A DNA stretch of 64,000 nucleotides from contig JAJPJX010000171.1 in NCBI GenBank assembly GCA_021324015.1, forward strand, positions 1-64,000, written 5' to 3'. Numbering within the stretch: position 1 is the stretch's first letter; every line of letters starts with the position of its first letter. This stretch comes from Solibacteraceae bacterium. GTDB taxonomy: Bacteria; Acidobacteriota; Terriglobia; Bryobacterales; Bryobacteraceae. Positions 3,064 through 56,939 of this stretch are shown one piece after another. A program made the translations under genes and the position numbers. Below the pieces are notes generated by a model that ran no database searches, was not told the DNA's origin, and saw only the letters and a list, made by a program, of their open reading frames with translations.

Positions 3064-3078
3064 GGGTTCCCTCCTGTG

Positions 3079-3098: not shown

Positions 3099-3101
3099 TC
3101 T

Positions 3102-3146
3102 TATTGTATGATGATATTCCCTATCAGAAACTCCGGCCCTTGTCAA
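3102..3146 (-). promoter_or_regulatory. Promoter region and putative GntR operator of receptor 1
   Basis: Read on the minus strand, a TTGACA -35-like hexamer (3141-3146) is followed 23 bp later by the 16-mer ATATCATCATACAATA (3102-3117). The same 16-mer, with one substitution, lies in front of the divergently located glycosidase at 4123-4138, in the same orientation relative to its gene. Its core GTAT-N4-ATAT (opposite strand) is a pseudo-palindrome of the kind bound by FadR-type GntR dimers. The assignment to the regulator at 3293-4039 is inferred from proximity. Confidence 0.5.
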
Positions 3147-3292
3147 GACTGCCGGGCCAGTTCGGCATGATTTTGGCGCTGGAGCGAGGGTTTGCCCGGG
3201 TTCGCGGTTTCCCCGGTCGCGATCGGCGGAGGGTTGTTGCCGGCGGTGTCCGTAGGCGCCGTTTTCTTTCGCGAGCGGCTCAGGCCAGCCGG

Positions 3293-26382: not shown

Positions 26383-26418
26383 TGGCTGGCGGCAAGTCCG
26401 CCCGGAGTGTCGAATCCG

Positions 26419-28294: not shown

Positions 28295-28489
28295 ACTAAA
28301 TTGCAGACCCGATCATCCGCAGCTTTGTAATTTGGCACTCGCCGCTCTCTAACGGTGGCCATGCGCCGGATTGTGAGCACCTACTCGAACCGGTGAACCC
28401 AAAAGAGATTGCACCCGCACTCCGGTGGCCATCCTGGTCCCCAATCAGGCCGCTCACCTACGCTTGGGCTACATCTCAAGGAGGAATCC

Positions 28490-35456: not shown

Positions 35457-38400
35457 TCAGTTTGCCCTTGGAACGAAGATGTAGGTTCGGCCGTTCGCGG
35501 CGGGCGCGAATTCCCACCAGCCGGGGTGGGGGGAGCGGAGCTTGACTTCGCCCAGGCTGTTGCCTTCGGGATCGTAGGCCAGCAGCGTGCCGGCGCCGGC
35601 GGCGGCGAACGCGATGCGGGAATTGCCGCAGATATCGATCAGTTGCAGACGCCCGCCGGCCTGGCTTCGCAGGGCCACGCTGCCCTCCGCACCCAGACGG
35701 CCCCGTTCGGTCCACTGCCCGCGCCCGTCCAGGAATTCGAACTCCGGGGCCTTCACGTAATCGATCCGGCGGCCTTCGGAATTGGCGGAGAGCTCGTAAA
35801 AGCCATTTTCCGGGCGGAAGGCCAGCCAGCCGGAGACCGGCAGCTCGACTGCTTGCCCGCCAGGATCCTTTACGGTCCAGGGCTCTTTCGCCGAACGGTT
35901 CACGTAGACCTCGGTTCCGTTTTCATAGGTGACGTGCAGCCGCGAGAGGGCGATGGCGCCGGTGGCATGCGCCTGGCTCGGGCTCAGGAAGCGGCCCAGC
36001 CGGTCCGCATATTCGATCGTTTTCGGCAGTACGAACGCGTACTGCTGCTGCAACTGCTGCATCATGTAGTACGAGCGCGCCATGATCTCGACGCCCAGCG
36101 GCTGCGACGGGTCGAATTCTTTGAGCAGCCAACCCATGTTGCCGTAGGCGATGGTGGTGGCCAGGAACAGGTCGGCGTATTCGCGCCGCCTGGGCGAGGT
36201 CATCCATTTTGGGTCCAGCTCGGCGAGGTAGCGGGAAATCGATCCCATGCCGTAATCGCACTGCAAGGGATGGATCTTCAACAAGTGGAAAGCCACGTCC
36301 ACGGGGTGCGCGAGCAGGTTGACATCGGTGTACACCCAGCCGTAGCTGCCGGATTCCAGACCGGCGTACAGCCATTGAAAGGTGCCCTCGGAGTTGGCGA
36401 TGCCGTACACGCGCTGGTCGTTGAGGAGCAGTTGGCCGTACGCATAGAAGGTGGCTGCGAAGGTGCCCGAGCCGGGAACCCGCGCGTCGAAGTCCACATA
36501 TTCCCAGGGGGCCACGGCCGTGTGCACGTCGGTGTACGACATGCGCGTACCGAACTTACTCTGGATGCGCGGGGCGTAGTACGCGTCCATTTCGACCGCC
36601 TTGGCAGGCTTGAGGGCGTAGTTCCGCATCCACGCGCGCCGCCATTCTCCGTCCGGCAGGCGCTGCACGAAATCCGGGTTCCAGTTGGTGTTCACGGGGG
36701 CGAAGTCGGTGTAGTTCGTGTAGACACCTTGCCGCCAGCCCAGCCCGAGCTGCGCCTGGATGTACCAGCGCAGCATGGCGTCGCCGCCTTTCTGCGGGGC
36801 CGCGTGCAGGCGCATGGTGAAACTGTCGCCTTCGTCGCGCCAGGTGACCTCGTGGCTATGCTGCATGATTTTGTCCAGGCCGTAGGAGCGGATTTCGCGG
36901 GAGCGCCGGTGGTCCCACTGGAAGGTGGGCGGCGCGGTAACCGTCCAGACCACCTGCTTTCCTCCGTCCGGGTTCTGCGAAGGCGGATTGGGGATGGTCG
37001 GGAGAGTTTCCTCGTAGATCGGCGAGTTGGTGAGGAAGATGCGCTCGCAGAGGTTGTTGCGGACGCCATCGGTGCGGGGCAGATACCGCATGCCGCCGTT
37101 GATTTCCGCGCCATCCGCCCCGACTTGCGGCTTTTCGGCGGCATAGGGCTCGGATGCGTTGCTGCGGTACCAGTCGAACCATATGGAGGTGAAGAGGGGC
37201 TTCGCCTCACTGCCCGAGAGCAGCACGCGCGGATTCTCCGGACGGTAGGTGATGTAGGGCACGGTGATGAGGCGGGGATTGGCCAGGCCCGAAACGCGCC
37301 CGAAGCTCAGCTCACTCGCTTCATGGCCGTCGCACCAGACGTCCCACAGCAGGGATTTCTGCCAGAGGCGGAACTGGTAATTGACCAGCCGCGAGCCATA
37401 CCGGAAACGCGCTTCCACCACGTCTCCGGAAAGCTGCGCGGCCACGAGTTCGCCTTCCGCCACGCGGCCGGGCGGCGTATCCGTGAAGCGCACACCGCCG
37501 CCATCCATGGGGCGGAAGGGAGGGCCGCCGTTCACGCTCACGGTCAGTTCCGCCATGGCTCCGGTTTTGGGACGGTAGACATAGGTCACGGCGGCATCCC
37601 GGCCCGCGTAGCGGAGTTCGAACTGGTTGGCGCCGGACTGCCGCACGGTCACCCGGAATTCCTTTTCCAGATTTGACGGCAGAATAGTTTCTTCGCGCGT
37701 GGGGAACGGCAGCGTGCCTTGGCCCGTGTTCATCCCCACGATCTGGCCGTGGAACGGCTGGAGATTCCGTTTCGGCTGCGCGCGCAAGGCGACCGGCTTC
37801 AACTCCTCCTGGTAAAAGGCCAGAGAATCGCAGAAAAAGTATCGCAGCTCCGGACTTTCGCCCATGGCCAGCTCAATTCCCGAGAAAGTGGCGGGCCAGG
37901 CGATTTGCGCCAGCACGTCCGCCGGGACCTTGCGGTGCATCAGCCACCACTGTTTCCACCGGATATCCGCCAGTTGCACTTTGAACTCGCGGCCAGCGGC
38001 GTCCCGGATCAGCACGGAGACATCGTAGACCGGGGGCGTGTGGTCCTTCCTTCCGTGGCCCCAGCGGTTCCCGTAACCCCACATGTCGACCGAATCGAAG
38101 CGGGCCGGAATGGGAATAGGGGCCGGCGGGCGGGCGATCATGCGACTTTCGGGGCGGGTTCCGGCGTACAGAAACTTCCCCACATATTGGCCCCAAAGCT
38201 GCTGCTCCCGGCTGCGGTGGAACTCGCCGCGCGCGCCGCCGTACAGTTCGAGCTTCCAACCTTTCAGATCCTCGAAATCGACCAGCGTGTGCGGATCCTC
38301 GCGGCGCTGGGTCCACGTGAACTCGTAGGGCTGCTGACCGACCTGCTGCCAGGGTTCGATTTCGTTGATGGCCGGCAGGACTTTCTCCGGCGCTTCCGCG

Positions 38401-38471
38401 CTATAGGCGAGCGCAAGAGCCAGCAAACCGGACAGGGCGACGCACGCCGGTCTGCGCGAGGCAGATGACAT
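35457..38471 (-). CDS. Large secreted protein of unrecognised family, paralogue A (possible GH101/DUF5696-like)
   Basis: About 1004 residues. The start ATG at 38471 (GGAGAG upstream) gives MSSASRRPACVALSGLLALA as signal peptide; the longer frame is rejected. It is a paralogue of the protein at 44858-47848, about two-thirds identical by eye. Shared blocks are PWQQVGQQPYEFTWTQR, LVDFEDLKGW, FDSVDMWGYGNRW, RWKQWWLMHR, LPFPTREETILP, LDKIMQHSHEVTWRDE, SYTDVHTAVAPWEYVDFDAR and the C-terminal LAYDPEGNSLGEVKLRSP. The order beta-sandwich, galactose-mutarotase-like sandwich, TIM barrel (~residues 560-800), C-terminal beta domain suggests a retaining glycosidase. Asp in SYTDVHTA and Glu in NSEGTFQWLYAG are candidate catalytic residues. 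It is the last gene of a co-directional series, 17 bp after the sialidase-like gene. Confidence 0.75.
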   Translation of the reverse strand: MSSASRRPACVALSGLLALALAYSAEAPEKVLPAINEIEPWQQVGQQPYEFTWTQRREDPHTLVDFEDLKGWKLELYGGARGEFHRSREQQLWGQYVGKFLYAGTRPESRMIARPPAPIPIPARFDSVDMWGYGNRWGHGRKDHTPPVYDVSVLIRDAAGREFKVQLADIRWKQWWLMHRKVPADVLAQIAWPATFSGIELAMGESPELRYFFCDSLAFYQEELKPVALRAQPKRNLQPFHGQIVGMNTGQGTLPFPTREETILPSNLEKEFRVTVRQSGANQFELRYAGRDAAVTYVYRPKTGAMAELTVSVNGGPPFRPMDGGGVRFTDTPPGRVAEGELVAAQLSGDVVEARFRYGSRLVNYQFRLWQKSLLWDVWCDGHEASELSFGRVSGLANPRLITVPYITYRPENPRVLLSGSEAKPLFTSIWFDWYRSNASEPYAAEKPQVGADGAEINGGMRYLPRTDGVRNNLCERIFLTNSPIYEETLPTIPNPPSQNPDGGKQVVWTVTAPPTFQWDHRRSREIRSYGLDKIMQHSHEVTWRDEGDSFTMRLHAAPQKGGDAMLRWYIQAQLGLGWRQGVYTNYTDFAPVNTNWNPDFVQRLPDGEWRRAWMRNYALKPAKAVEMDAYYAPRIQSKFGTRMSYTDVHTAVAPWEYVDFDARVPGSGTFAATFYAYGQLLLNDQRVYGIANSEGTFQWLYAGLESGSYGWVYTDVNLLAHPVDVAFHLLKIHPLQCDYGMGSISRYLAELDPKWMTSPRRREYADLFLATTIAYGNMGWLLKEFDPSQPLGVEIMARSYYMMQQLQQQYAFVLPKTIEYADRLGRFLSPSQAHATGAIALSRLHVTYENGTEVYVNRSAKEPWTVKDPGGQAVELPVSGWLAFRPENGFYELSANSEGRRIDYVKAPEFEFLDGRGQWTERGRLGAEGSVALRSQAGGRLQLIDICGNSRIAFAAAGAGTLLAYDPEGNSLGEVKLRSPHPGWWEFAPAANGRTYIFVPRAN

Positions 38472-38488
38472 CCAGACTCTCCGACCGT

Positions 38489-39613
38489 TCAAGTGGCGAT
38501 GGACCACACGGCTTTCCGCAAGACCGCGTGCGGGGAATCTTTCATCCGCTCGTACCACACCGTAACGAGCCGGCCGCCGGCTAATTCTACGGTGGAGGGG
38601 TAGCCCAGGTCGGAGCCAGCGCCGTCGTCGGAGAGGATCAGCGGCTCCGACCAGGCGCGGCCCTGGTCCTCGCTGATGCGCGCCTGGTTGCCGAACGGGG
38701 CACGCCGGTAGCCGTAGGTCATCAACAGGCGGCCGTCGCGGAGACGCAGGAGGTGCGAAGGCAAGCCCCAGACACCGATGGGATGCGGCACGCTCCAGGT
38801 CTTGCCGCCATCGGTGGACTCGGATTGGAGCGTTTCCCCGGAATTGGCGTGGTTATGATTGCGGATGTGGACGAGGAGCCGGCCGTTGGCCGCTTCCCCG
38901 GCGTGGAGTTCGTGGTACTCGACGACGCTATCGCCGGGCCGGGCGGGGATATCGGCGAGCCAGCGCCAGGTCTTGCCATCGTCGGTGGATTCGCACACGC
39001 CGACTTTGTGATCGGGATCCCAGAGCCGCTTGCCGGCATAGAGCAGGCGGCCGCTCGCGAGCGAGATGGGGCCGTGCGGGCTGTTCACGGGCACGCGATA
39101 GGGCGCCGACCAGGTCATCCCGCCATCGGTGGAGCGGAGCATCCAGGTGCCCAGCAGGGCTTCGCGCTGCCGCGGCGTGGCGCGGCGATTGACCGCCTGC
39201 CAGCGGGCGAAGCGCTCGGGAGGCCAGCCGGAAGCACGCTCGAGCACCTGCTCATAGGCCAGCGAGGTAAACGTAGTCACCAGCAGCGAGCCGGCCCTGG
39301 TTTCGCAGACGCCCGAGTCGCGATCGTCGATGGGGGTGTCCAGGAGCACCTCGGGCCAACTCCAGCTTCGCCCGCTGTCGGAGGAGCGGATCAGCTCCAC
39401 GCGCCCGAAGGGACAGACGTGCTGTTCGCGGCCCCCGGAACAGGCGACCAGGAGTTCGCCACTCCTGCGCATGGCGAGGGTCGGCCAGCCGTGATAGAAC
39501 TCGGGCTGCTGGCTGATGACCTCAAGGTTCTCGATGCGCGCGCGGGGCGCGGCTTTGAGAACACGCGCGGCGGTGATGGCCGCAGAGGGGAGAAAAGTCC
39601 TTCGCGTCAACAT
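38489..39613 (-). CDS. Sialidase-like Asp-box (BNR) protein, Tat-exported
   Basis: A 374-residue six-bladed-propeller protein. The leader MLTRRTFLPSAAITAARVL looks Tat-like. Five Asp-box repeats are visible: SSDSGRSWSW, STDGGMTWSAP, STDDGKTWRW, STDGGKTWSVP, and SEDQGRAWSEP (degenerate). Candidate active-site residues are present (YHELHAGEAANGRLLVHIRN with a Glu; VTVWYERMKDS with a Tyr-Glu), but the classical FRIP arginine motif near the N-terminus is replaced by HGWPTLAM. True sialidase (GH33) activity is therefore unproven; many such proteins act on other sugars or only bind. It lies 11 bp after the PLP-enzyme gene and 17 bp before paralogue A, so it is very likely in one operon with both. 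Confidence 0.8.
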   Translation of the reverse strand: MLTRRTFLPSAAITAARVLKAAPRARIENLEVISQQPEFYHGWPTLAMRRSGELLVACSGGREQHVCPFGRVELIRSSDSGRSWSWPEVLLDTPIDDRDSGVCETRAGSLLVTTFTSLAYEQVLERASGWPPERFARWQAVNRRATPRQREALLGTWMLRSTDGGMTWSAPYRVPVNSPHGPISLASGRLLYAGKRLWDPDHKVGVCESTDDGKTWRWLADIPARPGDSVVEYHELHAGEAANGRLLVHIRNHNHANSGETLQSESTDGGKTWSVPHPIGVWGLPSHLLRLRDGRLLMTYGYRRAPFGNQARISEDQGRAWSEPLILSDDGAGSDLGYPSTVELAGGRLVTVWYERMKDSPHAVLRKAVWSIAT

Positions 39614-39624
39614 TTCTTTCCCCG

Positions 39625-40839
39625 TCAGAAGTAGGTGCGATACAAGTCGATGACGTTGTAGTCATCATCCACGACCGGCATCACGCGCCACTTGTCGAAA
39701 GCGGTGCAGGGGTGCGAGATGCCGCAGCGGACCCGATCGCCGATGGCCAAACCGGCATCACCGGAGTACTTCAGAAACGCATGCTGGTCGTTGAGGTGCG
39801 TGATCTCGGCCGCGGGAATATCCAGAGGTTTGGGAAGGCCGAGATCATAAGAGCAATCGCGCTTGCCGAAGGTGAGAATGGCCAGGCCGGGGTCGGGCAT
39901 GGACTGCACGTAGGACCAGAGCTCCAGGGCCTGACGGAAGCGGGGCAGTTCGGCATCCTCCGGGGTGCCGGCCCGGTGCTCCTGCCGTTCGGCGTACTCG
40001 CCGTGGTCGTGGGTGACGTAACAGCCGCTGCGGATCACGGGCTGCCAGGCATCGCCGGCACGCCGGAGGACGCGCGACACGGGGCCCAGGAAAGCGCTGC
40101 CACCGGCGCTGAACAGCAGCCGCTCCCCCTGGCCGGCGAACGGCGCGGCGGCACCGGCCAGGAATGCCAGGAACTCATCGGCTTCCTGATCGATCTGCGC
40201 GTGACCTTCAAACGCCTCGACGCCCCGGAAGCAGAGATGCTTACGGTGGGAAAGAATGGCGCGGTGCACGTCTTTGGCCGCCTCAGCAGACCGCACGCCG
40301 GTGCGCCAGCCGCGGTGGCCGAATTCCAGGAGGATGCCGATCGGCCGCTGAGCGCCGTACTGCTCCCAGCCGCGGGCGAGGTAATCGACGCCCGCGGCGC
40401 TATCGGCCAGACAGAAGAATTCCACTTCCGGATCCTGATTCAGCGCCTCGGCCAGCGAGCGGATGTTGGCCGGCCCCACCAACTGATTGGCGATGAGCAC
40501 GCGCTTGACTCCGAAGCGGAGGCAAACCAGGGCTTGCGAGGCGTTGGCCACGGTGATGGCCCAGGCGCCGGCCGCGATCTGGCGCGCGTAAAGCTGCGGA
40601 CACATGGTGGTCTTGCCGTGCGGCGCGATCTGGAAGCCGTTCCGCGCGCACCAGGCGGCCATTTCGGCGAGGTTGTGCGCCAGGGCGGATTCGCGCAACA
40701 GCAGGAGGGGAAACGGCAGGTCGCCACGCAGCACGTTCCAGCGCTTCGCGGCGACTGTGGCGGGAGTGACCTCCGCGCCGTAGGGGATGCCCTTTTCGGT
40801 CCACGGGACGGAACCGTTCAGGATGGCGGAAATATCCAT
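39625..40839 (-). CDS. D-serine dehydratase-like / D-threonine aldolase-like PLP enzyme
   Basis: A 404-residue cytoplasmic fold-type III PLP protein (alanine-racemase-like barrel plus C-terminal beta domain). The PLP lysine is K76 in QIAPHGKTTMCP. The C-terminal GISHPCTAFDKWR (about residues 373-385) carries the His-x-Cys zinc site of Dsd1-type eukaryotic-like D-serine dehydratases. The YVTHDHGEY segment also fits that family. It would deaminate or cleave a beta-hydroxy D-amino acid. Its presence in a glycan operon is unexpected; D-amino acids from peptidoglycan or amino-acid-decorated glycans are possible sources (inferred). No Shine-Dalgarno is visible before the ATG, but a TATAAT lies 16 nt upstream. 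Confidence 0.87.
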   Translation of the reverse strand: MDISAILNGSVPWTEKGIPYGAEVTPATVAAKRWNVLRGDLPFPLLLLRESALAHNLAEMAAWCARNGFQIAPHGKTTMCPQLYARQIAAGAWAITVANASQALVCLRFGVKRVLIANQLVGPANIRSLAEALNQDPEVEFFCLADSAAGVDYLARGWEQYGAQRPIGILLEFGHRGWRTGVRSAEAAKDVHRAILSHRKHLCFRGVEAFEGHAQIDQEADEFLAFLAGAAAPFAGQGERLLFSAGGSAFLGPVSRVLRRAGDAWQPVIRSGCYVTHDHGEYAERQEHRAGTPEDAELPRFRQALELWSYVQSMPDPGLAILTFGKRDCSYDLGLPKPLDIPAAEITHLNDQHAFLKYSGDAGLAIGDRVRCGISHPCTAFDKWRVMPVVDDDYNVIDLYRTYF

Positions 40840-40855
40840 AATGGAACCGGTTGGA

Positions 40856-40861
40856 ATTATA
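40856..40861 (-). promoter_or_regulatory. TATAAT -10 box before the PLP-enzyme gene
   Basis: A perfect TATAAT on the minus strand lies 16 nt before the ATG at 40839, inside the 36-bp gap after the PHP-domain gene. It could give an internal promoter for the PLP enzyme, sialidase-like and paralogue A genes. No good -35 is seen, and an AACCGGTT palindrome lies between it and the start. Confidence 0.35.
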
Positions 40862-40875
40862 TCGGCTTTCGCATT

Positions 40876-43737
40876 TCAGCGGGCGTAGTCCACCCAGATG
40901 GGACTGGACCAGGCGAGTTGGCCGGCGGTCTGTTCGACGCGCACATAATAGTAGCTTTCGCCGGGCTTGATATCGTTGTCGCGGTATTCAAAGGAGGCCG
41001 AGGAACTTCCGGGCCGCACGGTGTGCACGAAGGTGTTGTTCTTGATGAGTTCGATGCGGTCGATGGGCCCGGTGCCTTCCACCTTCACATTCAGCACGGG
41101 AATCTCGCGCGAGGGGAAGACATCGCCCATTAGGTGCTCGCCAATGCGGACATCCACGATGATGTTATCGGTGGCGGCATAGCTGTGCCGGGCGCGCATG
41201 GCGTCCAACAGGCCTTCGCGGCCGACCCGGTCTTCGGGCACGAGCAGGCAGGCGTAGGAATCGTGCGTGGCGATGTGATCGGAGCTGGCTTGCACGCCGA
41301 GTTTCAGGCCCTTGGCCCAGGCGTTCCAGATGAAGCCGGCGGGACGCCAGGGCTCGCCGTGATGGTAGTAGCGCCTCTCGGGAGTATCGGCGCGGGGCGC
41401 GTTTTCGTACTCGTAGGAAGAGTTGAGGCCCTGGTAGATTTCGACCAGCGGCTCGAGCTGCGGGTCGTTGTCGCGCCAATCGGTACCCTGGTCGGAAGCA
41501 GTGCTGTGAGATGAGGTCAGCCCGTTCAACTTTCGCAGGTAGGGATACAGCACGGGCCCGGTGTTGATCTTGCCCTTCATCTCGTCGGGCGAGATGGGAA
41601 GCTCGCGGTTGCCGCGCTGAGCGAAGAAGGTGTTGCGGTGGCCGTTGGGATAGGGCACGCTGCGCTCGGTGCCGAACAGGGGCCAGAAGCGGCCGGGCAC
41701 CAGGAAGGCGTCCTCGGATTTTTCCGTGCGCCACCAGTTGTACTCGGTGCCGCCGTACTGGTGATCGGTCACCACCATGTAGTCGTACTGGCCGGCGGTA
41801 AAGGCATAGCGATAGAAGTCGAGCAGCGATCCGTCGCCGATGCCATCGGGCGAAATATCGGTGTGGCGGTGCAGGTCGCCGCGCAGGATGCGGTAGCTCT
41901 GGGAGCCGGCGCGGTAGCGATAGCCGCGAATGGCAGCCACATTGGCGGGCTCGTTGGGGTGCACGGGCGCGGCCTGGAGCGGGGGCTCCGCGAAGGGCAC
42001 GAGCTGGGGAGGCGTTCCGCCAGCCGGCGCCTGAATAGACGTGTAGGCGACCTCGGTGGTGGCCGGCTGCGGGTGGCCGAACGCGCGCCCGTCACCGGCC
42101 CAGGCGAACCAGAGCCGGCCGGCGGGATCCACGGCGCCGGCGATGCGTTCGTCATTGCGCCCGGCGGTAGAATCCAGCTTTACCGCCGGCATCCAGCGGT
42201 TCCCGTCGAGCCGGGTGACGAGCACCTCCCACATGCCGTTCGCACCCCAGTTGTTCTGCACGCGCGTGCGAAAACTGGTAAGCGAGCGGCCGACCGCCCA
42301 GATTCGTCCGGAGGCGTCGGCCTGAAGGCGGGCCATCTGGAAGTAGTCGTGCCAGGCGGCCGGAATAGCCTGCATGATATCGGCGGCGGGCTGCATGAGG
42401 CGGCCCGCATCCAGGCAGGCGATGCGCACCGCGCGCGTGCGGTAGAGGCCGTTGCCGCCGCGGGGGCTGAAGTGCTGGCTGTTCCAATCCTTGCCCCAAT
42501 TCACTTCGGCGGCATCCCAGGAGATCCAGAGGCGGTCGTGGCGGTCGCAAGCCAGAGAGACATTGGCGTCGTAACCAGGTGAGCGGGTGATCTGACGGCG
42601 CTCTTCCAAGGCGCCGCCGGCGGTCAGACGCCGCAAGTAGATATCGAAGTTGCCGTTCTCGTAGCCATCCCATCCGATCCACAGGTTGCCCTTTGAATCG
42701 GCGGCGGCAGCCGGCACCCAGTTGTCGGCCGGGCCAGTGCTGACGAGCGTTTCGGGGGACCACGCGGCGCCGTCCCAAGTCCGCATGAGAATCTCCGAGT
42801 TGCGGCCGCGGAAGCCCTGCCAGACGAGGTGCAATTTGCCGCGCGCGTCGCGCACGAGCGTGTGGTACAGATTGGGGCCCTCGGCGCCAGTCAACTGCTG
42901 CGTATCGGACCACCGCCCGCCGGACAAATATCGGCCATAGATGCCCCAGACGCCGCCCCCCTTGCCCGACCACACCACCCATAGCCGGTTTTGGCCATCC
43001 TCGGCGAGCGCGGTGCGGAAGTTGTCGGTGAGGTGATCGCCGCTGACGCGCTGGGGGGGCTCCCAGCCGGAGGCCCCACGGTGAGCCACCCAGACGGAAT
43101 CGGCACGATTTGAGTAAGAAATCCACGAGGCCCACAGATCCCCGCGCGCATCCACGGCCAAGGCCGGGTAATCGTTCTCCCCCGGCTGGAGCGTCAGAGT
43201 GACGGTGGGGGGAAGGCGCTCAACGGTGACATCGCCTTCCAGGAAGGCCAGTGGCTGACCGAGGGAAAGCTGGTCCAGCGTGAAGGAGAAATTGCCCGAG
43301 ACAGTCGAGACCTGGACGCGTGCGCCGGCGGGGGCTTCGACGGTGGCCACGATTCCGTTGGGGATGAGCTCCCAGGGATGGGTGTGCACGGGGTCGTATC
43401 CGCGGGGGGAGCGCGAATCGGCGTACGTGGTGGCGCGGCTGGTGCACTTCCAGCGGTTCGGACCAATGATGGCGTCGGCGTGCTCGAAGTAGACGCCGCT
43501 GAGCCGCAGGATGGCGCCGCGGTCCACGGTCATCTCGCCATCCCAGGTTTTGGGGCCGATCCTTTGGACGCCGAAGAGGATGCGCAGAGCCACGGCGCTT
43601 TCCTGGTGGGCGTCTCCGACCGGCGCCGGCGCGGTTTGCGCGGTGCGCAAATAGGCGGGCAGGGCCAACAGCACGACGGCAACAGCCAAAGCGAACAGGC
43701 CGTATTTTTCGAGGAGCAGCGAGATTCGTCGGAACAT
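40876..43737 (-). CDS. Membrane-anchored or secreted beta-propeller - PHP (DUF3604-like) protein
   Basis: About 953 residues from ATG 43737 (MFRRISLLLEKYG; GGGAG upstream). A hydrophobic segment (LFALAVAVVLLALPAYL) near residues 14-32 anchors or exports it. Residues ~60-190 are a beta domain. Residues ~200-600 contain propeller-like repeats (YPALAVDARGDLWASWISY; WVPAAAADSKGNLWIGWDGY; VSLACDRHDRLWISWDAAE). A PHP-type metallohydrolase domain starts near residue 619 with GDLHRHTDISPDG and continues with YMVVTDHQYG, NGLTSSHSTA, VQASSDHIATHDSY and AMRARHSYAATDN, as in DUF3604/CehA-like proteins. The metal-binding His/Asp set is therefore largely present. A C-terminal beta-sandwich follows (GTGPIDRIELIKNN; ESYYYVRVEQ). 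The reaction (phosphoester or other) is unknown. A REP-like repeat lies just upstream. Confidence 0.82.
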   Translation of the reverse strand: MFRRISLLLEKYGLFALAVAVVLLALPAYLRTAQTAPAPVGDAHQESAVALRILFGVQRIGPKTWDGEMTVDRGAILRLSGVYFEHADAIIGPNRWKCTSRATTYADSRSPRGYDPVHTHPWELIPNGIVATVEAPAGARVQVSTVSGNFSFTLDQLSLGQPLAFLEGDVTVERLPPTVTLTLQPGENDYPALAVDARGDLWASWISYSNRADSVWVAHRGASGWEPPQRVSGDHLTDNFRTALAEDGQNRLWVVWSGKGGGVWGIYGRYLSGGRWSDTQQLTGAEGPNLYHTLVRDARGKLHLVWQGFRGRNSEILMRTWDGAAWSPETLVSTGPADNWVPAAAADSKGNLWIGWDGYENGNFDIYLRRLTAGGALEERRQITRSPGYDANVSLACDRHDRLWISWDAAEVNWGKDWNSQHFSPRGGNGLYRTRAVRIACLDAGRLMQPAADIMQAIPAAWHDYFQMARLQADASGRIWAVGRSLTSFRTRVQNNWGANGMWEVLVTRLDGNRWMPAVKLDSTAGRNDERIAGAVDPAGRLWFAWAGDGRAFGHPQPATTEVAYTSIQAPAGGTPPQLVPFAEPPLQAAPVHPNEPANVAAIRGYRYRAGSQSYRILRGDLHRHTDISPDGIGDGSLLDFYRYAFTAGQYDYMVVTDHQYGGTEYNWWRTEKSEDAFLVPGRFWPLFGTERSVPYPNGHRNTFFAQRGNRELPISPDEMKGKINTGPVLYPYLRKLNGLTSSHSTASDQGTDWRDNDPQLEPLVEIYQGLNSSYEYENAPRADTPERRYYHHGEPWRPAGFIWNAWAKGLKLGVQASSDHIATHDSYACLLVPEDRVGREGLLDAMRARHSYAATDNIIVDVRIGEHLMGDVFPSREIPVLNVKVEGTGPIDRIELIKNNTFVHTVRPGSSSASFEYRDNDIKPGESYYYVRVEQTAGQLAWSSPIWVDYAR

Positions 43738-43779
43738 GGGTCTCCCGGTCACATCATCAGTTTCAGCCCGCGGCTAAAA

Positions 43780-43805
43780 ACCGCTCCCTGCGGGCCCGGC
43801 TCGGC
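43780..43805 (+). repeat. REP-like dispersed repeat, copy B
   Basis: ACCGCTCCCTGCGGGCCCGGCTCGGC-type copy of the element at 10003-10028 and 59443-59471, in the 75-bp gap between the aldo/keto reductase and PHP-domain genes. The first nine bases (ACCGCTCCC) are shared, and the 3' part (CGGCTCGG) matches copy C. Confidence 0.55.
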
Positions 43806-43812
43806 AAGATGG

Positions 43813-44796
43813 CTATCCCATCCACTCGGGGTGGCGCGCGGTGCCATCGAATTTCGAGGTGGTTTTGAACTGTTCGTAGTTACCGGTCAGCGCCGCGGCG
43901 CGAGTGCGGGCGGCCAGGGCGGCCACCTGCTGGCTGGTGAGCGGTTTGAAGGTGCGCGCCGCTTCGAAGGCCTGGTCCAGGCGATCCATGCTGTCGCAGC
44001 CGTTGATCACCACGGAAGTCGGCAGGCTCAAGGCGTAGTGCAGGCACTCGATCGCCGAGGCGATTTTGTTCTGCGGGATCGTCCCGCTGGCCATGGGCTT
44101 CATGCCCAGCACCGCGATTCCCTGCTCCACCAGTTTGGGCACCACCTGGTGCGCGAAGCTGCGAAAGCTGGCGTCCAGGATATTGAGCGGCATCTGCGCG
44201 GAATCGAAGTGGAACTGGTGCTGCGCCGCCACCTCGAGCATGCGAAGGTGCACGGCCGGGTCTTTGTGCCCGGTGAACCCGATGTAGCGGATCTTGCCGG
44301 CCTTTTTGGCCGCGAGCAGGGCTTCCAGTGGCCCGTCCGGCGCGAAGAAGCGGTCCGGGTCCTCCATGCGGATGTTTTCGTGATACTGCATCAGGTCGAT
44401 CACATCCGTTTCGAGGCGCTGGAGCGATTCGTCGATCTGGCGGGCGGTGGATGCCCGGGTGCGCCCGTCGAACTTGGTCATCAGGAAGATTCTCTTGCGG
44501 TAGCCGTCGCGCAGGGCCTTGCCCATCCACACTTCGCACTTCCCGTCCGCGTAGTCCCAGCAGTTGTCGAGGAAGGTAATGCCGCGGTCGATGGCCGAGC
44601 GGACGATGCGGATGCCCTCCTGCTCCTCTCGGGGCCGCCCGATGTGCGCCCCACCCAGGCCTATCGCCGAGACACGCTCGCCGGTCTTGCCGAGATGGCG
44701 GTAGATCATGTCGCCCGAGCGTGTCTGCGAATTCAGAACGCCGGCGGAAAGAGTGCTTAACAGGACTTCGAGAAACTCGCGCCGTGGCTGGCTCAT
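43813..44796 (-). CDS. Aldo/keto reductase
   Basis: A 327-residue NAD(P)H-dependent reductase of the (beta/alpha)8 AKR fold. The catalytic tetrad can be placed as Asp/Tyr in FLDNCWDYADGKCEVW, Lys in IFLMTKFDGR and His in DLMQYHE. GLGGAHIGRPREEQEG and GKIRYIGFTGHKDP are typical. The N-terminus (MSQPRREFLEVLLSTLSAG) resembles a twin-arginine leader, so periplasmic location is possible, as in other Tat-exported AKR-like proteins. The ATG follows GGGAGGG. It is on the same strand as paralogue B upstream and the PHP-domain gene downstream. A role in interconverting an oxidised sugar is inferred. Confidence 0.92.
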   Translation of the reverse strand: MSQPRREFLEVLLSTLSAGVLNSQTRSGDMIYRHLGKTGERVSAIGLGGAHIGRPREEQEGIRIVRSAIDRGITFLDNCWDYADGKCEVWMGKALRDGYRKRIFLMTKFDGRTRASTARQIDESLQRLETDVIDLMQYHENIRMEDPDRFFAPDGPLEALLAAKKAGKIRYIGFTGHKDPAVHLRMLEVAAQHQFHFDSAQMPLNILDASFRSFAHQVVPKLVEQGIAVLGMKPMASGTIPQNKIASAIECLHYALSLPTSVVINGCDSMDRLDQAFEAARTFKPLTSQQVAALAARTRAAALTGNYEQFKTTSKFDGTARHPEWMG

Positions 44797-44857
44797 GGGG
44801 CCCTCCCGATCTGCGAGTTATCTTATCACTGACAGAAGCATTCAGCCGCCAGCGTGC

Positions 44858-47848
44858 TTACTGCCGTTGAAATACGTAGCGGCGGCCCTTGGGGAGCGGG
44901 GTGAATTCGACCCAGCCGCTGGCCGGGGAACGCAGTTCCACCTTGCCCAGGCTGTTGCCATCCGGATCGTAGGCCATGAGAATGCCGGGCCCTTTGGCCT
45001 GGAAGGCAATGCGATCGTTGCCGTAGATATCGATCAGCTCCAGGCCGCCCGGGCCGCGCTGGCGCAGCGCGACGCTGCCTGCGGCTCCCAGGCTGCCGTG
45101 CTCGGTCCACTGGCCGCGGCCGTCCAGGAACTCGAATTCGGTCGCCTGGACGTGATCGATGCGCCGGCCGCCCACGTTGGCGGAGAGCTCGTAGAAACCG
45201 TTGCCGGGATGGAAGACCAGCCAGCCGGAGACGGGGAGTTCGACGGGATGGCCGCGGTGATCCTTCACCGTCCAGGCGCCGGACGAGCCGCGATTTACGT
45301 AGACTTCCGTGCCGTTTTCGTAAACCACGTGCAGGCGGGATGCGGCGATGGCGCCAGTCGCGTGCGCCTGGCTGGGCGTCAGGAAGTTGCCCTGCGCGTC
45401 GGCATACTCGATGCGGCTGGGACGCGCGAAGGCGTACTGCTGCTGCAACTGCTGCATCATGTAGTAGGAGCGCGCCAGGGCTTCGGTACCAAAAGGCTGA
45501 AAGTCGTGGAACTCGTTCACCAGCCATCCCATGTTGCCGTAGGCGATAGTGGTGGCCAGGAACAGGTCCACGTACTCGCGCCGCTTGGGCGATTTCCGCC
45601 AGTCCGGATCGATCTTGTCCAGGTAATAGTGCGTGTAGCCCATGCCGTAATCGCACTGGAGCGGGTGGATTTTGTTCAGTTGGAAGGCCACGTCCACGGG
45701 GTGCGTGAGCAGGTTCACGTCCGTATACACCCAGCCATAGCTGCCGGATTCCAGCCCCGCGTAGAGCCACTGGTAGGTGGCCTCGGACTGGGTCGGTCCG
45801 TAGACGCGCTGATCGTTCAGCAGGAGCTGGCCGTAGGCGTAGAAGGTCGCGGCCATAGTTCCCGCGCCGGGCACTCGGGCGTCGAAATCGTTGTAGCGCC
45901 AGGGCGCCACCGCGGTGTGAACGTCGGTATAGGACATGCGAATCCCGTACTTTTCCTTGATTCGCTTCGCATAATACTCGTCGAATTCGACGGCTTTCAC
46001 AGGCTTGAGGGCGTAATTTCGCGGCCAGGCGCGGCGCCATTCGCCATCCGGCTCGCGCTGCACGTGGTCCGGGCTCCAGTTGGTGTTGGTAGGGCTGAAA
46101 TCGGTGTAGTTGCTATAGGTGCCTTGCAGCCAGCCCATGGCGTTCTGCGCGCGGATGTACCACTGGAGCATGGCGTCGCCGCCCTTCTGCGGCGCGGCCC
46201 GCAGGCGCATGGTGAAGCTATCGGCTTCGTCGCGCCAGGTGACCTCGTGGCTGTGCTGCATGATCTTATCCAGCCCGTAGGATCGGATGGCGAGGCAGCG
46301 CTGGTGGTCTTTCTGGAAAGTCTCCGGGGCGGTCACGGTCCAGATCACCTGTTTGCCTTCCTGCTGCCGCAGGGAGGGCGGATTGGCAATAGTCGGCAGC
46401 GTCTCCTCGTAAACCGGGGAACTGGTCACGAAGATCCGTTCGTAGAGATTGTTGCGCAGGCCGTCGGTCTTAGGCAGGTAGCGCATACCGCCGTTGATTT
46501 CCGCGCTGGTGGCGGCGACTTTCGGCTCCCGGCTGAAGTAGGGCTCAGAGGCGTTCGAGCGATACCAGTCGAACCACACCGAGGTGAAAACCGGCCTAGC
46601 TTCGGTGCCGGACAGGAGCACGCGCGGATTGGTGTTGCCGTAGGTCAGATAGGGCACGGTGATCAGCTTTGGATTAGCCACACCGGCCACTTTGCCGAGG
46701 CTCAGCTCCACGGCGGTTCCGCCATCGCACCAGACGTCCAGCACCAGGGACTTCTGCCACAGGCGCAGCTCGTAATCCACGAGTTGCGAGCCCACGCGGA
46801 AGCGGGCTTTGACGGCATCGCCGGCCAGCACGGCGGAGACCAACTCGCCTTCCGCCACGCTGCCGGCGGGCGTCGTGTCGAGCCGGATGCCTCCGCCCTC
46901 CAGCGGCTGAAACGCCGCGCCGCCGTTGACGCTGGCGGTGATCTCGCCGAGGCCGCCGCGCCGCGGGCGGTATTCGTAGACCACGGTGGTATCGCGGGCC
47001 TGATAGCGGAACTCGAATCTTCCGGGGCCCGCCTGCCGCACGTTGGCCTGGAATTCCTTCTCCAGGTTCGCCGGCAGGATGGTCTCCTCGCGGGTGGGGA
47101 ACGGCAACGTGCCAGGGCCGGTGTTCACGCCCACGATTTCGCCGCGGTAAGGCTGCAGGTTGCGCCTGGGCTGGGCCTGGAGGGTCAGCGGCTGCAGGTC
47201 CTCGACCGAAAAGGCCAGCGAATCGCAATAGAAGTAGCGCGTCTCGGGGTGCGCGATCTTGGAGATCTCGATGCCGGAGAAAGCGGCAGGCAACACGATC
47301 TGCTGCAGCGTGGCGGCGGGAATGCGGCGGTGGATCAGCCACCACTGTTTCCAGCGGATATCCGTCATCTGGATACGGAATTCCTTGCCAGCCGCGTCCG
47401 TCACCAGGATGGCGACATCGGCCGGGGGAGTGGTTTCGTCTTTGACCCACGCCCAGCGGTTGCCGTAACCCCACACGTCGATGGAATCGAAGCGCTCGGG
47501 GATGGGGATGGGCTTGGGAGGCCGGGCCACTATGCGGCTCTCCGGCCGCGACCCGGAGTAAGTGAACTGGCCGACGTACTGGCCCCACATCTGCTGCTGG
47601 CGGCTGCGGCGGAACTCGCCCTGCGCGCCGCCGTAGAGTTCCAGCGTCCAGCCCTTCAGGTCTTCGAAATCCACCAGCGTGTGCGGATCCTCGCCGCGCT
47701 GGGTCCAGGTGAATTCGTAGGGCTGCTGGCCCACCTGCTGCCACGGTTCCATCTCGTTGATGGCCGGAACCACCTTGTCCGGCGCGGCAGGAGGCTCGAT
47801 GGCGCCCGCAGCCGCCAAGATCAGAAATACGGGAAAAATCCGATGCAT
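44858..47848 (-). CDS. Large secreted protein of unrecognised family, paralogue B (possible GH101/DUF5696-like)
   Basis: About 996 residues; start ATG 47848 (MHRIFPVFLILAAAGA signal; GAGGGA upstream). It is collinear with paralogue A along its whole length, including the N-terminal block PWQQVGQQPYEFTWTQR, the RWKQWWLIHRRIP block, LPFPTREETILPANLEKEF, LDKIMQHSHEVTWRDE, SNYTDFSPTNTNW, SYTDVHTAVAPWRYNDFDAR, TQSEATYQWLYAGLESGSYG and HPLQCDYGMG. Barrel-like strands end in Asp/Glu at positions conserved between the two copies (TDFSP, SYTDVH, TQSEATY), which is what a retaining glycosidase would show. It sits directly downstream of receptor 4, separated from it by an intrinsic terminator, so it may be the chief enzyme of that receptor. 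No known family is assigned with certainty. Confidence 0.75.
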   Translation of the reverse strand: MHRIFPVFLILAAAGAIEPPAAPDKVVPAINEMEPWQQVGQQPYEFTWTQRGEDPHTLVDFEDLKGWTLELYGGAQGEFRRSRQQQMWGQYVGQFTYSGSRPESRIVARPPKPIPIPERFDSIDVWGYGNRWAWVKDETTPPADVAILVTDAAGKEFRIQMTDIRWKQWWLIHRRIPAATLQQIVLPAAFSGIEISKIAHPETRYFYCDSLAFSVEDLQPLTLQAQPRRNLQPYRGEIVGVNTGPGTLPFPTREETILPANLEKEFQANVRQAGPGRFEFRYQARDTTVVYEYRPRRGGLGEITASVNGGAAFQPLEGGGIRLDTTPAGSVAEGELVSAVLAGDAVKARFRVGSQLVDYELRLWQKSLVLDVWCDGGTAVELSLGKVAGVANPKLITVPYLTYGNTNPRVLLSGTEARPVFTSVWFDWYRSNASEPYFSREPKVAATSAEINGGMRYLPKTDGLRNNLYERIFVTSSPVYEETLPTIANPPSLRQQEGKQVIWTVTAPETFQKDHQRCLAIRSYGLDKIMQHSHEVTWRDEADSFTMRLRAAPQKGGDAMLQWYIRAQNAMGWLQGTYSNYTDFSPTNTNWSPDHVQREPDGEWRRAWPRNYALKPVKAVEFDEYYAKRIKEKYGIRMSYTDVHTAVAPWRYNDFDARVPGAGTMAATFYAYGQLLLNDQRVYGPTQSEATYQWLYAGLESGSYGWVYTDVNLLTHPVDVAFQLNKIHPLQCDYGMGYTHYYLDKIDPDWRKSPKRREYVDLFLATTIAYGNMGWLVNEFHDFQPFGTEALARSYYMMQQLQQQYAFARPSRIEYADAQGNFLTPSQAHATGAIAASRLHVVYENGTEVYVNRGSSGAWTVKDHRGHPVELPVSGWLVFHPGNGFYELSANVGGRRIDHVQATEFEFLDGRGQWTEHGSLGAAGSVALRQRGPGGLELIDIYGNDRIAFQAKGPGILMAYDPDGNSLGKVELRSPASGWVEFTPLPKGRRYVFQRQ

Positions 47849-47860
47849 GAGATCCCTCAA

Positions 47861-47900
47861 AGAAAAACCTCCCGGCCCTCCGTGTGGAGAACCGGGAGGT
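47861..47900 (-). terminator. Rho-independent terminator between receptor 4 and paralogue B
   Basis: On the minus strand a 9-bp stem (ACCTCCCGG / CCGGGAGGT) with an inner 4-bp stem (CTCC/GGAG) is followed immediately by TTTTTCTTT. It begins 26 bp after the stop codon of receptor 4 and ends about 12 bp before the ATG of paralogue B. It would therefore terminate most receptor transcripts or act as an attenuator for the downstream enzyme genes. Confidence 0.8.
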
Positions 47901-51535: not shown

Positions 51536-53218
51536 CTAAAAGGACGCCAGAAGTTCGGCCTGCACCTTCCGAAATTCCGCCGGGGTTCGCGCGTAGTCCA
51601 AAAAGGAGCGCACCATTTCGCCGGCCAGGCTTTCGGCGCGGTCCGGATTTTTCCGCCGGAGGGCTTCCAGCAGGCCGAAGTCCTCGACGCCTTCGCGCAT
51701 CTGTTCCAGCCGGATGGAGCTGGCGAGCGACAACCGGGCGCGGTCCGGATAGGTGATATACGCGTCGCCGGGAGGCAGATAGGTGCGCCCTTCGTTGATC
51801 ACGGGCTGCGTGTCCTTGAGCGGCTGGGGACCCCAATAGTTGCCACCCCAGTGCAGGAAGCCCCGGAAACCGTAGCGGAAGTTGATCCAGTGCAGGAGGC
51901 GCACCTTCACCAGAGAGTAGTCGATGAAGCGGTTGGCATAGCGGCCGCGGGGCGAGAGGCAGGTGTAATACCAGAGTTCACCCCCGTCGTGCGCGTGCCG
52001 CGCCAGCACATCCAGGGAATGATCGAACGAGCCCAGGCAGGGGACCCAGATGTCCGTGGTTTTCTCCATGAAAGACAGGTCCTGCTTGGCGCCCACGGGC
52101 TCCATGGTGCGCACCCGGGGCATCAGCCGCCGCACCAGGGTGGCGGTCTCGACGAACGCTTCGGTTTCGCCCGGGCGGGGCTCATCCAGGATGCCTTGCA
52201 GATAGCGGCCGGTCCATCCCCGGGCCTCCAACCGCTGATAGAGAGCCGGCAGAAAGGAGTTCAGAAACTGCTGCGCCTGGGGGTCGCGGTAGGGCAGCGC
52301 GCGCAGCACCGCGCGGCCGTTTTCCAGCGTCCAGGCGCGCACCAGGATGGGGGCGCCGGGGCGGCGCTCCCGCGTCAGCAGGTTGCCGCCTTCGATGGAC
52401 CCGGCGACGCCTGCCGACTCGAAGGTCTCGACGAAGCGCTCGAAATTGCTCAGGTCATAGCGCAGACGGCCGCCGGCGGGTTCGGCCGCCGCCAAGTTGA
52501 CAGGATCCGCACCGATGGAAGTCTGGTGATAGCCGGCCAGAAACCGGGCGATGTTGCCGACCAGGGTCCACCACTGTTCGGAGTAGCGCGAGCATCCCCA
52601 AAACTGGCGCACGTGTTGGTCGCTGAGATTGAAATGATTGCTGACGGCCAGCGGGATCGGCGCCGGCACCTCGGCAGCCGAGACGTGCAGCGCGTAGGGG
52701 ATCTCCGCCCGCACGTCCCGGTCCTGCCGGATGCGCAGCACGCCCCGATATTCGCCGGGCGCCTGCCCCGCCGGCACCGCCACGGTGATCCAGATGGAAC
52801 GCGTCTGGTTCTTTTTCAGAGTGACGGGAAACGAATCCCGCAGAGCATCGGGAAACAACGCGGGTGCTTTGCGGACCAGCTCGTCCTCCGGCGTATCCGG
52901 CGTGTTCGAGGTCACCACCACATATTCGACCCAGCGCACACGAACCGTGTCGATGGGGATTCCGGGGCCGGTCAGCGGCAAGGCGTCCACATACAGGTCG
53001 CCCAGGGTGCGCCGGGAGCGCAAGGCGAGCTGCACGCTGGTGTGCGAGCGCCGGGCGGCCGAAAACAGGGGCGACACTTCGCCAGAGCCAGGCACATCGT
53101 CCGGAAAAACCTTAGTAAGCGAATCCACAAACCAGTGGTCCAGCGTCCCCCAGGCGCGGCAGCCCGCGCCGACGGCGCCTATCAGGCATAAGAGCACGAA
53201 CAGCCCATCGCGGCGCAT
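51536..53218 (-). CDS. DUF4091/GH123-like lipoprotein, copy 2
   Basis: A 560-residue exported protein with a lipobox-like leader (MRRDGLFVLLCLIGAVGAGC). Residues ~30-190 form beta-sandwich domains (WITVAVPAGQAPGEYRGVLR). Residues ~200-480 look like a GH123-type TIM barrel with ILDEPRPGETEAFV, whose Asp-Glu pair fits the substrate-assisted mechanism of GH123 beta-N-acetylgalactosaminidases. WYYTCLSPRGRYANRFIDY and GFLHWGGNYWGPQP are DUF4091 hallmarks, and REGVEDFGLLEALRR ends the barrel. The start ATG lies 3 nt after the previous gene's stop, with GGAGGAA inside that gene's end, so the two are translationally coupled. It is a tandem paralogue of 53221-54858 (about 40-50% identical by eye). Confidence 0.85.
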   Translation of the reverse strand: MRRDGLFVLLCLIGAVGAGCRAWGTLDHWFVDSLTKVFPDDVPGSGEVSPLFSAARRSHTSVQLALRSRRTLGDLYVDALPLTGPGIPIDTVRVRWVEYVVVTSNTPDTPEDELVRKAPALFPDALRDSFPVTLKKNQTRSIWITVAVPAGQAPGEYRGVLRIRQDRDVRAEIPYALHVSAAEVPAPIPLAVSNHFNLSDQHVRQFWGCSRYSEQWWTLVGNIARFLAGYHQTSIGADPVNLAAAEPAGGRLRYDLSNFERFVETFESAGVAGSIEGGNLLTRERRPGAPILVRAWTLENGRAVLRALPYRDPQAQQFLNSFLPALYQRLEARGWTGRYLQGILDEPRPGETEAFVETATLVRRLMPRVRTMEPVGAKQDLSFMEKTTDIWVPCLGSFDHSLDVLARHAHDGGELWYYTCLSPRGRYANRFIDYSLVKVRLLHWINFRYGFRGFLHWGGNYWGPQPLKDTQPVINEGRTYLPPGDAYITYPDRARLSLASSIRLEQMREGVEDFGLLEALRRKNPDRAESLAGEMVRSFLDYARTPAEFRKVQAELLASF

Positions 53219-53220
53219 GA

Positions 53221-54858
53221 CTATTCCTCCAGCAACTGCCTTTCGAGGTCCCGGAACACGGCCACGTCGCGCACGTAGTCACTGACGTGCGGAATGGCCG
53301 CCTGTGCCAGCGAGCTGGCCTTGGCCGGATTGCGGCGGGCCAGCGCCGCCAGCAACTCGTAGTCCTCAATGCCTTCCCGCATGGTCTCCAGGCGGATGGA
53401 GCTCAGAATCGAGTTGCGCGCGGGGTCCGGATACACGATGGCGCTATCCCCGGCCGGCAGCAGCGTGGTGTTGTCGTTGATCACCGGCTGCACATTCAGA
53501 AACGGTTTGGGCGACCAGTGGTTTCCTCCCCAATGCAGGAAGCCCGTGAGGTTGTGCCGGAAGTTGAACCAGTGCAGCAGGCGCACCTTGAGGAGGGGAT
53601 AGTCGATGAAGCGATTCAGATGCCGGCCCTGCGGACCGATGCAGGTGTAGAACCAGGCCTGCCCACCTTTGTCCACGTGCGCGCGAATCACCGGGAAGAG
53701 CTGGTCGAAGCTGCCCAGCACGGGCACCCAGATATCGCAGACATCCGCGAAGAAGCGGATATCCTGATCGAGGCCGACCGCATCTATGGTCGGGATGCCC
53801 GGCAGATTGCGGCGAATGATCTGCGCGTAGCGGGTATAGACAGCGGCTTCGCGGCCGTGCGGCTCATCATGGATGTGCTGGATGTATCGCCCCGCCCAGC
53901 CCTTCTCTTTCAAGTGCGCATACAACGTTCCGAGGAAGGAGTGGAGGAACTGCTCCGCTCGCGGGTCGTCCGGGTCCAGTTGTTTCTGCTCGACCCGGCC
54001 CGGCTCCGCCACATAGGCCGGAACCACCATGGCTGTCTGGTAGCCGGAAGCCCGCCCGAGCAGGTGGCCGCCTTCGATGGTGCCGATCAGGCCGGCCTTT
54101 TCGAACACCTCCACCCAGCGGTCGAAGTTCGCAAAGTCGTACCGCAGGCGGCCGTTTTCCAGCGATGGGCGAACGAGGTTAAACACGGGGGTCAGGATGA
54201 CATTCTGCCGGTGGTCCGCCATAACCCGGCCGATCTTTTCAAGCAGGGACCAGTAACGTTCCGGATGCTGCACCAGCGGGTAGTGGCGGGCCAGGTATTC
54301 CGCATCCAGGTTGAACCAGTTGGTGACTTGCAGGGTCTGGCGGGCGGGCACGACGGCCGGCATTACGCGCACCTGAAACGACACCCGTTTCAGAACGCGC
54401 CCACCGTCGGCAAACTCGACTTCTCCCGGATACTGGCCGGGCGCCGTGTCCGCCGGGGCATGCACGGTGATCCAGATCGAAGTGGTCTGCCGGGCCGGAA
54501 GTTCGAACGGGAAATCCTCCAGCAGTGGGTCCGGGTAGAGGGCGGGAGCCGGGCGGATCACCTCGTCCTCCGGTGTGCCGGCGGGGTTCGATCCGACCGG
54601 GACATAGCCGACGTGCCGCACCTGGGCCGGCAACCGGCTCTTCACCGTGACCTGCAAACCCGCGATCCGCCGCATCGAGCGGACGGCGATTTGCAGGCTG
54701 GCGTGCCCGTTGCGGGGCACCACAGACGCCGCCGCGCCGCGCTCGATGGCGCTATCGGGGAAGACCTTGATCAGAGGGTCCACGAACCCAACGCTGAGCC
54801 GCGGCCCGGCGCCACAGGCGGCGCACAGCAGGCTAATCAGGACGATCCATTTGCGCAC
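53221..54858 (-). CDS. DUF4091/GH123-like lipoprotein, copy 1
   Basis: A 545-residue exported protein; start GTG 54858 with GGAGG 7 nt upstream; lipobox-like leader MRKWIVLISLLCAACG. It has the same order as copy 2: beta domains with WITVHAPADTAPGQYPGEVE, then a barrel with QHIHDEPHGREAAVY (Asp-Glu pair), WFYTCIGPQGRHLNRFIDY, GFLHWGGNHWSPKP and REGIEDYELLAALARR. GH123-like beta-N-acetylgalactosaminidase activity on the cell surface or in the periplasm is inferred. It is in an operon with the DUF6259-like gene 18 bp upstream and copy 2 just downstream. Confidence 0.85.
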   Translation of the reverse strand: MRKWIVLISLLCAACGAGPRLSVGFVDPLIKVFPDSAIERGAAASVVPRNGHASLQIAVRSMRRIAGLQVTVKSRLPAQVRHVGYVPVGSNPAGTPEDEVIRPAPALYPDPLLEDFPFELPARQTTSIWITVHAPADTAPGQYPGEVEFADGGRVLKRVSFQVRVMPAVVPARQTLQVTNWFNLDAEYLARHYPLVQHPERYWSLLEKIGRVMADHRQNVILTPVFNLVRPSLENGRLRYDFANFDRWVEVFEKAGLIGTIEGGHLLGRASGYQTAMVVPAYVAEPGRVEQKQLDPDDPRAEQFLHSFLGTLYAHLKEKGWAGRYIQHIHDEPHGREAAVYTRYAQIIRRNLPGIPTIDAVGLDQDIRFFADVCDIWVPVLGSFDQLFPVIRAHVDKGGQAWFYTCIGPQGRHLNRFIDYPLLKVRLLHWFNFRHNLTGFLHWGGNHWSPKPFLNVQPVINDNTTLLPAGDSAIVYPDPARNSILSSIRLETMREGIEDYELLAALARRNPAKASSLAQAAIPHVSDYVRDVAVFRDLERQLLEE

Positions 54859-56928: not shown

Positions 56929-56939
56929 CGAGGTTCCTC

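Follow-up and report, generated by a model that had tools for sequence, protein, structure and literature searches.

Here, we report two proteins of a Solibacteraceae bacterium, A and B (P0001 and P0002), which we consider, with a probability of about 0.75, to be secreted retaining α-glycosidases of the GH129/GH101 structural group, with D642 as the nucleophile, E689 as the acid/base (residue numbers are those of B) and a probably galacto-configured substrate. Both are encoded in one 64,000-nucleotide stretch of genomic DNA, the window of this analysis. The family to which they belong is most likely a branch of a known enzyme superfamily, unnamed in Pfam and NCBIfam, with ordinary chemistry.

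The protein pair and its gene cluster

The initial annotation of the window had described two collinear paralogues of about 1000 residues, which it placed in no recognised family. Open frames of 1004 and 996 amino acids bear this out (Table 1), the sequence blocks it quoted are present in A and B, and neither protein gives a single Pfam or NCBIfam model match at E≤1. The pair is collinear as claimed, and the measured identity in a pairwise alignment (711 of 987 residues, 72%, E 0.0) is slightly higher than the two-thirds that had been estimated. Judged by eye, the N-terminus of each protein resembles a Sec signal peptide. A single-sequence search of the PDB with B (E≤10) returned only three matches, all antibody heavy chains (E 0.21-0.23).

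Table 1. Genes, domains and candidate catalytic codons of the gene series
Feature	Position	Strand	Remarks
DUF6259/GHL6 glycosidase-like protein	54877..57171	-	true start probably internal to the ORF
GH123 catalytic-domain protein	53221..54858	-	strongest GH123 match of the genome
GH123 catalytic-domain protein	51536..53218	-	
Outer-membrane receptor, 1140 aa	47927..51349	-	OMP_b-brl_4 (1.3e-201) and CarboxypepD_reg; directly upstream of B
Protein B (P0002), GH129/GH101-like, 996 aa	44858..47848	-	frame open; order: signal peptide, carbohydrate-binding-like jelly roll, β-supersandwich, TIM barrel, C-terminal β domains
Jelly-roll domain, B residues 54-218	47195..47689	-	like FlaA, xanthanase module and CBM11
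W608 codon (B)	46025..46027	-	on NagBb Trp398, the sugar-stacking Trp; kept 55/55
D642 codon (B), proposed nucleophile	45923..45925	-	on NagBb Asp435; kept 55/55
E689 codon (B), proposed acid/base	45782..45784	-	end of the next barrel strand; kept 55/55
Aldo/keto reductase	43813..44796	-	
Propeller (Reg_prop) protein	40876..43752	-	weak PHP-domain match
D-serine dehydratase/hydroxyaspartate-aldolase-like enzyme	39625..40839	-	
BNR_2 sialidase-like repeat protein	38489..39613	-	
Protein A (P0001), GH129/GH101-like, 1004 aa	35457..38471	-	old paralogue of B; frame open
D648 codon (A), D642 equivalent	36528..36530	-	A/B alignment, offset +6; codon checked
E695 codon (A), E689 equivalent	36387..36389	-	A/B alignment, offset +6; codon checked

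Twelve consecutive minus-strand genes run from 62733 down to 35457, with B in the middle of the series and A at its end, and B and A bracket four genes on the same strand behind the outer-membrane receptor. The order is a DUF5107-TPR protein, a Melibiase-like protein (below its cut-off), the DUF6259 protein, two GH123-domain proteins, the receptor, B, the aldo/keto reductase, the propeller/PHP protein, the D-serine-dehydratase-like enzyme, the BNR_2 protein and A; from the receptor to A the intergenic gaps are 11-78 bp with the starts of Table 1. The "TonB receptor" that had been noted before one copy is an outer-membrane barrel with a carboxypeptidase-regulatory domain and precedes B, and the other copy, A, does end the same gene series. 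GH123 is a β-GalNAcase family; the 8.2 Mb genome has two strong GH123 genes (178 and 143 bits), both in this cluster, and four further matches elsewhere at 31-33 bits, above the 23.1-bit cut-off. Taken together, the series resembles a cluster for glycan utilisation.

Between the receptor gene and B, at 47867-47900 (-), there is a hairpin of 15 pairs followed by TTTTCTTT, the longest of 10 terminator-like sites; this hairpin may allow an excess production of the receptor, while promoter and terminator counts in the window are at chance level. Elsewhere in the window, a 585-amino acid protein that has no Pfam match at E≤0.1 (26407-28164, +) adjoins a sulfatase gene (28409-30097).

Predicted fold and the link to GH129, GH101 and DUF5696

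Briefly, an AlphaFold2 model of B was built on alignment A3 (29 rows) and reached a pLDDT of 84.7 and a pTM of 0.83. The barrel is less confident, i.e., the 10-residue blocks over residues 501-800 range from 62 to 91 pLDDT, with a mean of 64 for the block holding D642 and 78 for that holding E689. The model and its structural matches give a glycoside hydrolase TIM barrel behind a β-supersandwich. D642 lies just after the modeled strand 638-641 and E689 just after strand 686-688, and this predicted placement is as expected for the catalytic pair of a barrel. The jelly roll (residues 54-218) is closest to FlaA1 (Z 14.8), a xanthanase module (13.6) and CBM11 (11.5). The C-terminal part, modeled alone at a pLDDT of 95.4, has no Foldseek match at 0.001 and a best Z of 8.2, to a xanthan lyase; we read it as a predicted β sandwich of a common kind.

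Foldseek ranked GH101 best (1.9e-19), ahead of ZgGH129 (9.2e-16) and NagBb (3.8e-13). In a second comparison with VIA-align, restricted to Foldseek's matches, the top was NagBb (5wzq_A, Z 17.9, rmsd 3.5 over 512 residues; 5wzn, Z 17.5), next came ZgGH129 (5opq, Z 16.2) and then the F. plautii galactosaminidase (9ayu, 13.6), and GH101 was ranked behind GH36 and others (Z 11.4, rmsd 8.0). Sequence identity in these alignments is only 9-13% for the GH129 and GH101 enzymes of known structure. The initial annotation had proposed a structure prediction with comparison to GH101; in that comparison GH101 reached a Z of 11.4, and GH129 is nearer.

Profile searches point the same way. Profile A2 (13 rows) reached NagBb at 5.3e-5 and profile A4 (22 rows) reached NagBb 5wzn at 8.3e-9, with residues 510-646 on 298-439, and gave a short match to ZgGH129 (2.5e-5). 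In the A4/NagBb alignment D642 falls on Asp435 and W608 on Trp398 (counted along the printed chain); E689 is beyond the end of the alignment, and its assignment as the putative acid/base rests on its invariance and strand position. The catalytic pair of NagBb we take to be Asp435, the nucleophile, and Glu478, the acid/base. Trp398 is a stacking platform for GalNAc and Ca2+ is part of the recognition (PMC8106489). A profile of the sister clade of the family (A6, five rows) reached NagBb 5wzn at 4.2e-13 and the GH101 enzyme EngBF at 3.6e-6 (2zxq), or 2.2e-7 for a fusion entry. Loci L065-L069 are Armatimonadota representatives of the sister clade, with proteins of about 1100 amino acids that are DUF5696/GH101-like and have His at the position of NagBb H366.

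The family models themselves did not pick up the pair. PF11308 (GH129) has no match in P0001 or P0002 at E≤1 and none among the 22 A4 members at E≤0.01, the best being 0.084 (L068); a PF11308 search of the source genome gave no match, and the controls of that search gave none either. Against five Armatimonadota PF11308 proteins, hhalign gave a weak result (probability 6%, E 0.0062), and one of these five itself matches NagBb only at 0.0018. PF12905 (GH101) has no match in the window proteins at E≤1 and matches six of the 22 A4 members at E≤0.01 (best 7.8e-7), with the L065 region above its cut-off (31.9 bits) and L009, L010 and L067-L069 below. Among 251 Armatimonadota genomes, 27 have PF12905 matches above the cut-off (best 70.4 bits), some of which are the sister clade, and none of which looked clearly GH101. 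PF18952 (DUF5696, cut-off 25.6 bits) likewise has no match in the window proteins at E≤1; it matches seven of the 22 A4 members at E≤0.01, and L009, L010, L067, L068 and L069 are above the cut-off (up to 2.2e-15), with L045 (0.14) and L070 (0.29) below. The single DUF5696 match of the source genome is elsewhere than in the cluster.

By model match, A and B are thus not members of GH129, GH101 or DUF5696, and because these matches failed we keep the pair apart from GH129 and GH101. A distant likeness to GH101/DUF5696 had been suggested from the sequence; remote members do match DUF5696 above its cut-off and GH101 mostly below its own, but GH129 is closer (Z 17.9, profile 8.3e-9). The description as an undescribed family therefore holds for Pfam and NCBIfam, where both proteins are blank, but has to be narrowed to an unnamed branch of an already known superfamily.

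Conserved residues, relatives and gene neighbourhoods

Conservation was counted in alignments that include the two window proteins among their rows, with ORFs under 780 amino acids excluded when rows were picked. A1 has 30 rows and is without L002, L004, L007, L009, L010, L033, L046 and the duplicates L005, L006 and L013; L025 is in A1 and absent from A3 and A7 (its end reads X), and A7 is also without L044. A4 has 22 hand-picked rows at 21-72% identity to P0002, for which 12 of 24 newly fetched long rows were used. Because A4 was hand-picked, the count was redone on all distinct ORFs among the loci with a length of ≥700 amino acids and a score of ≥100 bits (n=55). In A1, D642, E689, H534, E535, W538, R539, D540, Y578, W608, D654 and D656 are all invariant (30/30). 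In A4, D642, E689, W608, W538, N580, Y581, D654 and H728 are kept in 22/22 and H534 in 21/22, and among the 55 long ORFs D642, E689, W608, W538, N580 and Y581 are kept in every one, D654 and H534 in 54 and H728 in 53. D642, which is the Asp of SYTDVH, and E689, which is the Glu of the SE(G/A)T block, had been singled out as residues to follow among homologues; both are invariant in all three sets (30/30, 22/22 and 55/55).

A scan of the named genomes gave 34 loci, 19 in Bryobacterales/Bryobacteraceae, 12 in other Acidobacteriota and one each in Armatimonadetes, Zipacnadia and KSB1. Please note that the occurrence rates per group were measured with different queries. In the phylum sample, 9 of 396 genomes matched a single-protein query (own genome counted, one match marginal at E 9.6e-4), and in the order sample 22 of 200 matched profile A3 (own genome counted); the match was full-length in 15, to a fragmented gene in one and only partial or weak in six. 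Two of 82 genomes matched in the phylum of the KSB1 genome, one being the source of L045. In Armatimonadota, 92 of 251 genomes matched profile A2, which is wider than the family and also finds the sister clade, G396 and G397 of the 251 having supplied rows. On these sampled rates, the family has a patchy distribution in Acidobacteriota, and Armatimonadota genomes commonly carry a member of it or of its sister clade.

The source genome holds four family copies, the fourth of which (L004, C185:11700-14642) is broken by an internal TAA; a receptor 34% identical to that of the window stands beside it. The SKYB110 copy (L046) is split across several frames, and these two are decaying or misassembled copies. 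Upstream of another copy of the source genome (L100, contig C161) are, on the same strand, a lyxose-isomerase-like gene, a GH38 α-mannosidase gene and a γ-glutamyltranspeptidase gene. In a tree of 48 rows (L023 and L049 are an identical pair and L044 is present at two lengths), P0001 shares a branch with L027 and L035 (support 100/99) and P0002 is on a separate, unresolved branch. By this tree, A and B are old paralogues of different subclades. A recent tandem duplication of A/B is ruled out by this separation.

Bryobacteraceae TGS_ACI2 has seven family copies, five of them within about 23 kb on contig C10 (L102, L103), together with two receptors, a sulfatase-TPR protein and two DUF6259-like genes. 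The two receptors are 69% and 68% identical to that of the window and each is directly upstream of a family gene; with the window, the link of receptor and family is thus found three times in two genomes. The sulfatase gene separates the first family gene from the second receptor, and of the DUF6259 relatives (59% and 26%) the closer one directly follows three family genes. A GH123 gene is directly upstream of the family gene in L039, and BLAST found a relative of the window's GH123 in the closely related L040. In L021, a 71% relative of the window BNR_2 protein (2967-4007, -) stands tail to tail with the family gene.

When 27 stretches (26 loci and part of the window) were clustered, no ORF cluster besides the family itself occurred in more than three. 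Twenty chosen flanking proteins were also scanned; nine were without a family at E≤1e-4 and the others were mixed, including DUF5696, GH123, histidine kinases, a symporter and FG-GAP repeats. A conserved operon that might point to the substrate is accordingly mostly absent.

Putative mechanism, substrate and comparison with known systems

In the mechanism we propose, W608 would be the stacking surface for the sugar. The anomeric carbon would be attacked by D642, located where one barrel strand ends, and the leaving group would be protonated by E689, located where the next strand ends; water would then release the sugar with its configuration retained, i.e., a double displacement. Binding of the glycan is probably the task of the N-terminal jelly roll, and import of the product probably that of the co-encoded receptor. 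The substrate is probably an α-linked galacto-configured sugar, and the same glycan would also feed the clustered GH123, sialidase-like and other enzymes. We infer the galacto-configuration from the nearest characterised enzymes, which act on α-GalNAc or anhydrogalactose (PMC8106489 and PMC5698469). A non-catalytic glycan-binding protein that has retained the fold would be compatible with the carbohydrate-binding-like N-terminal domain and with four copies in one genome, but the strand-end Asp and Glu are kept in 22/22 rows, at identities down to 21%, and in 55/55, and we regard this possibility as very improbable.

Within the stretch aligned with NagBb, the residues altered in the NagBb quadruple mutant 5wzq relative to 5wzn are H320, D322 and H366, which, from this mutant and PMC8106489, are taken as Ca2+ ligands. 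D322 falls on H534, H366 on Y578 (Tyr in 14/22 A4 rows, which are the window clade) and H320 on a variable column with His in 3/22, the three Bryobacterales rows of A4; this comparison is by sequence alignment only, and the H320 and D322 columns adjoin an indel. That these residues are not kept argues for an altered metal or recognition site in the window clade.

We consider it unlikely that A and B are divergent α-N-acetylgalactosaminidases, functionally GH129/GH101, which would remove α-GalNAc in a GalNAc-glycan cluster. Such a role would agree with NagBb as the nearest fold, with the aligned nucleophile and stacking Trp, and with two GH123 genes in the cluster and another adjoining L039; however, the three NagBb residues above are not kept, no PF11308 match at E≤0.01 was found among 22 members, and the fold alone leaves the substrate unfixed, since anhydrogalactose is the sugar on which the GH129-like ZgGH129 acts. 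Only a little short of even odds do we place another galacto-configured sugar, i.e., α-galactose, galactosamine or an anhydro or sulfated galactose, with the NagBb metal-site residues replaced by an HExxWRD and Tyr set. H534, E535, W538, R539, D540 and Y578 are the invariant residues of this set (30/30 in A1), and the seven sister-clade rows of A4 differ, having a gap at 535 and His at 578. After NagBb, the catalytic folds that score best are those of ZgGH129 and the F. plautii galactosaminidase, and the sulfatase gene among the TGS_ACI2 family genes would also suit a galacto-configured sugar of this kind, although the metal-site alignment adjoins the indel. A tentative extension, to which we give somewhat less than an even chance, is that the HExxWRD clade forms a glycoside hydrolase family of its own, deserving a separate CAZy number, with GH129/GH101-type enzymes that have a rebuilt metal/recognition site and a specificity new to the group. 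In some Bryobacteraceae this family would have multiplied around a dedicated receptor, and its target may be an α-linked galactosamine/galactose polymer of microbial or fungal walls.

For proteins that are blank in Pfam and NCBIfam, retaining α-glycosidase activity at D642 and E689 is a definite hypothesis of catalysis that names residues to test. Since A2 matches occur in 92/251 Armatimonadota genomes, a function found here would apply to a large part of the unannotated carbohydrate metabolism in two groups with few cultured members. In the open-access literature, no paper on the A/B family was found among the matches listed, which is not proof of its absence in print, and DUF5696 was not found.

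Among known systems, NagBb (GH129; 5WZN, 5WZP, 5WZQ, 5WZR) is like A and B in its supersandwich and TIM barrel, its nucleophile and its stacking Trp; its identity to B is 10-12%, and B has an extra N-terminal jelly roll and a C-terminal β domain. DagB/ZgGH129, a GH129-like 3,6-anhydro-D-galactosidase (5OPQ, 8RZK), has a fold like that of B at 12-13% identity, and works in a marine carrageenan polysaccharide gene cluster with sulfatases (PMC5698469). The GH101 endo-α-N-acetylgalactosaminidases (3ECQ, 5A55, 2ZXQ) have the best Foldseek E-value but a lower fold Z, with an rmsd of 8.0. DUF5696 (PF18952) has the D, E and W columns in common with the window clade, and the DUF5696-matching sister clade differs from it at HExxWRD and at Tyr/His578.
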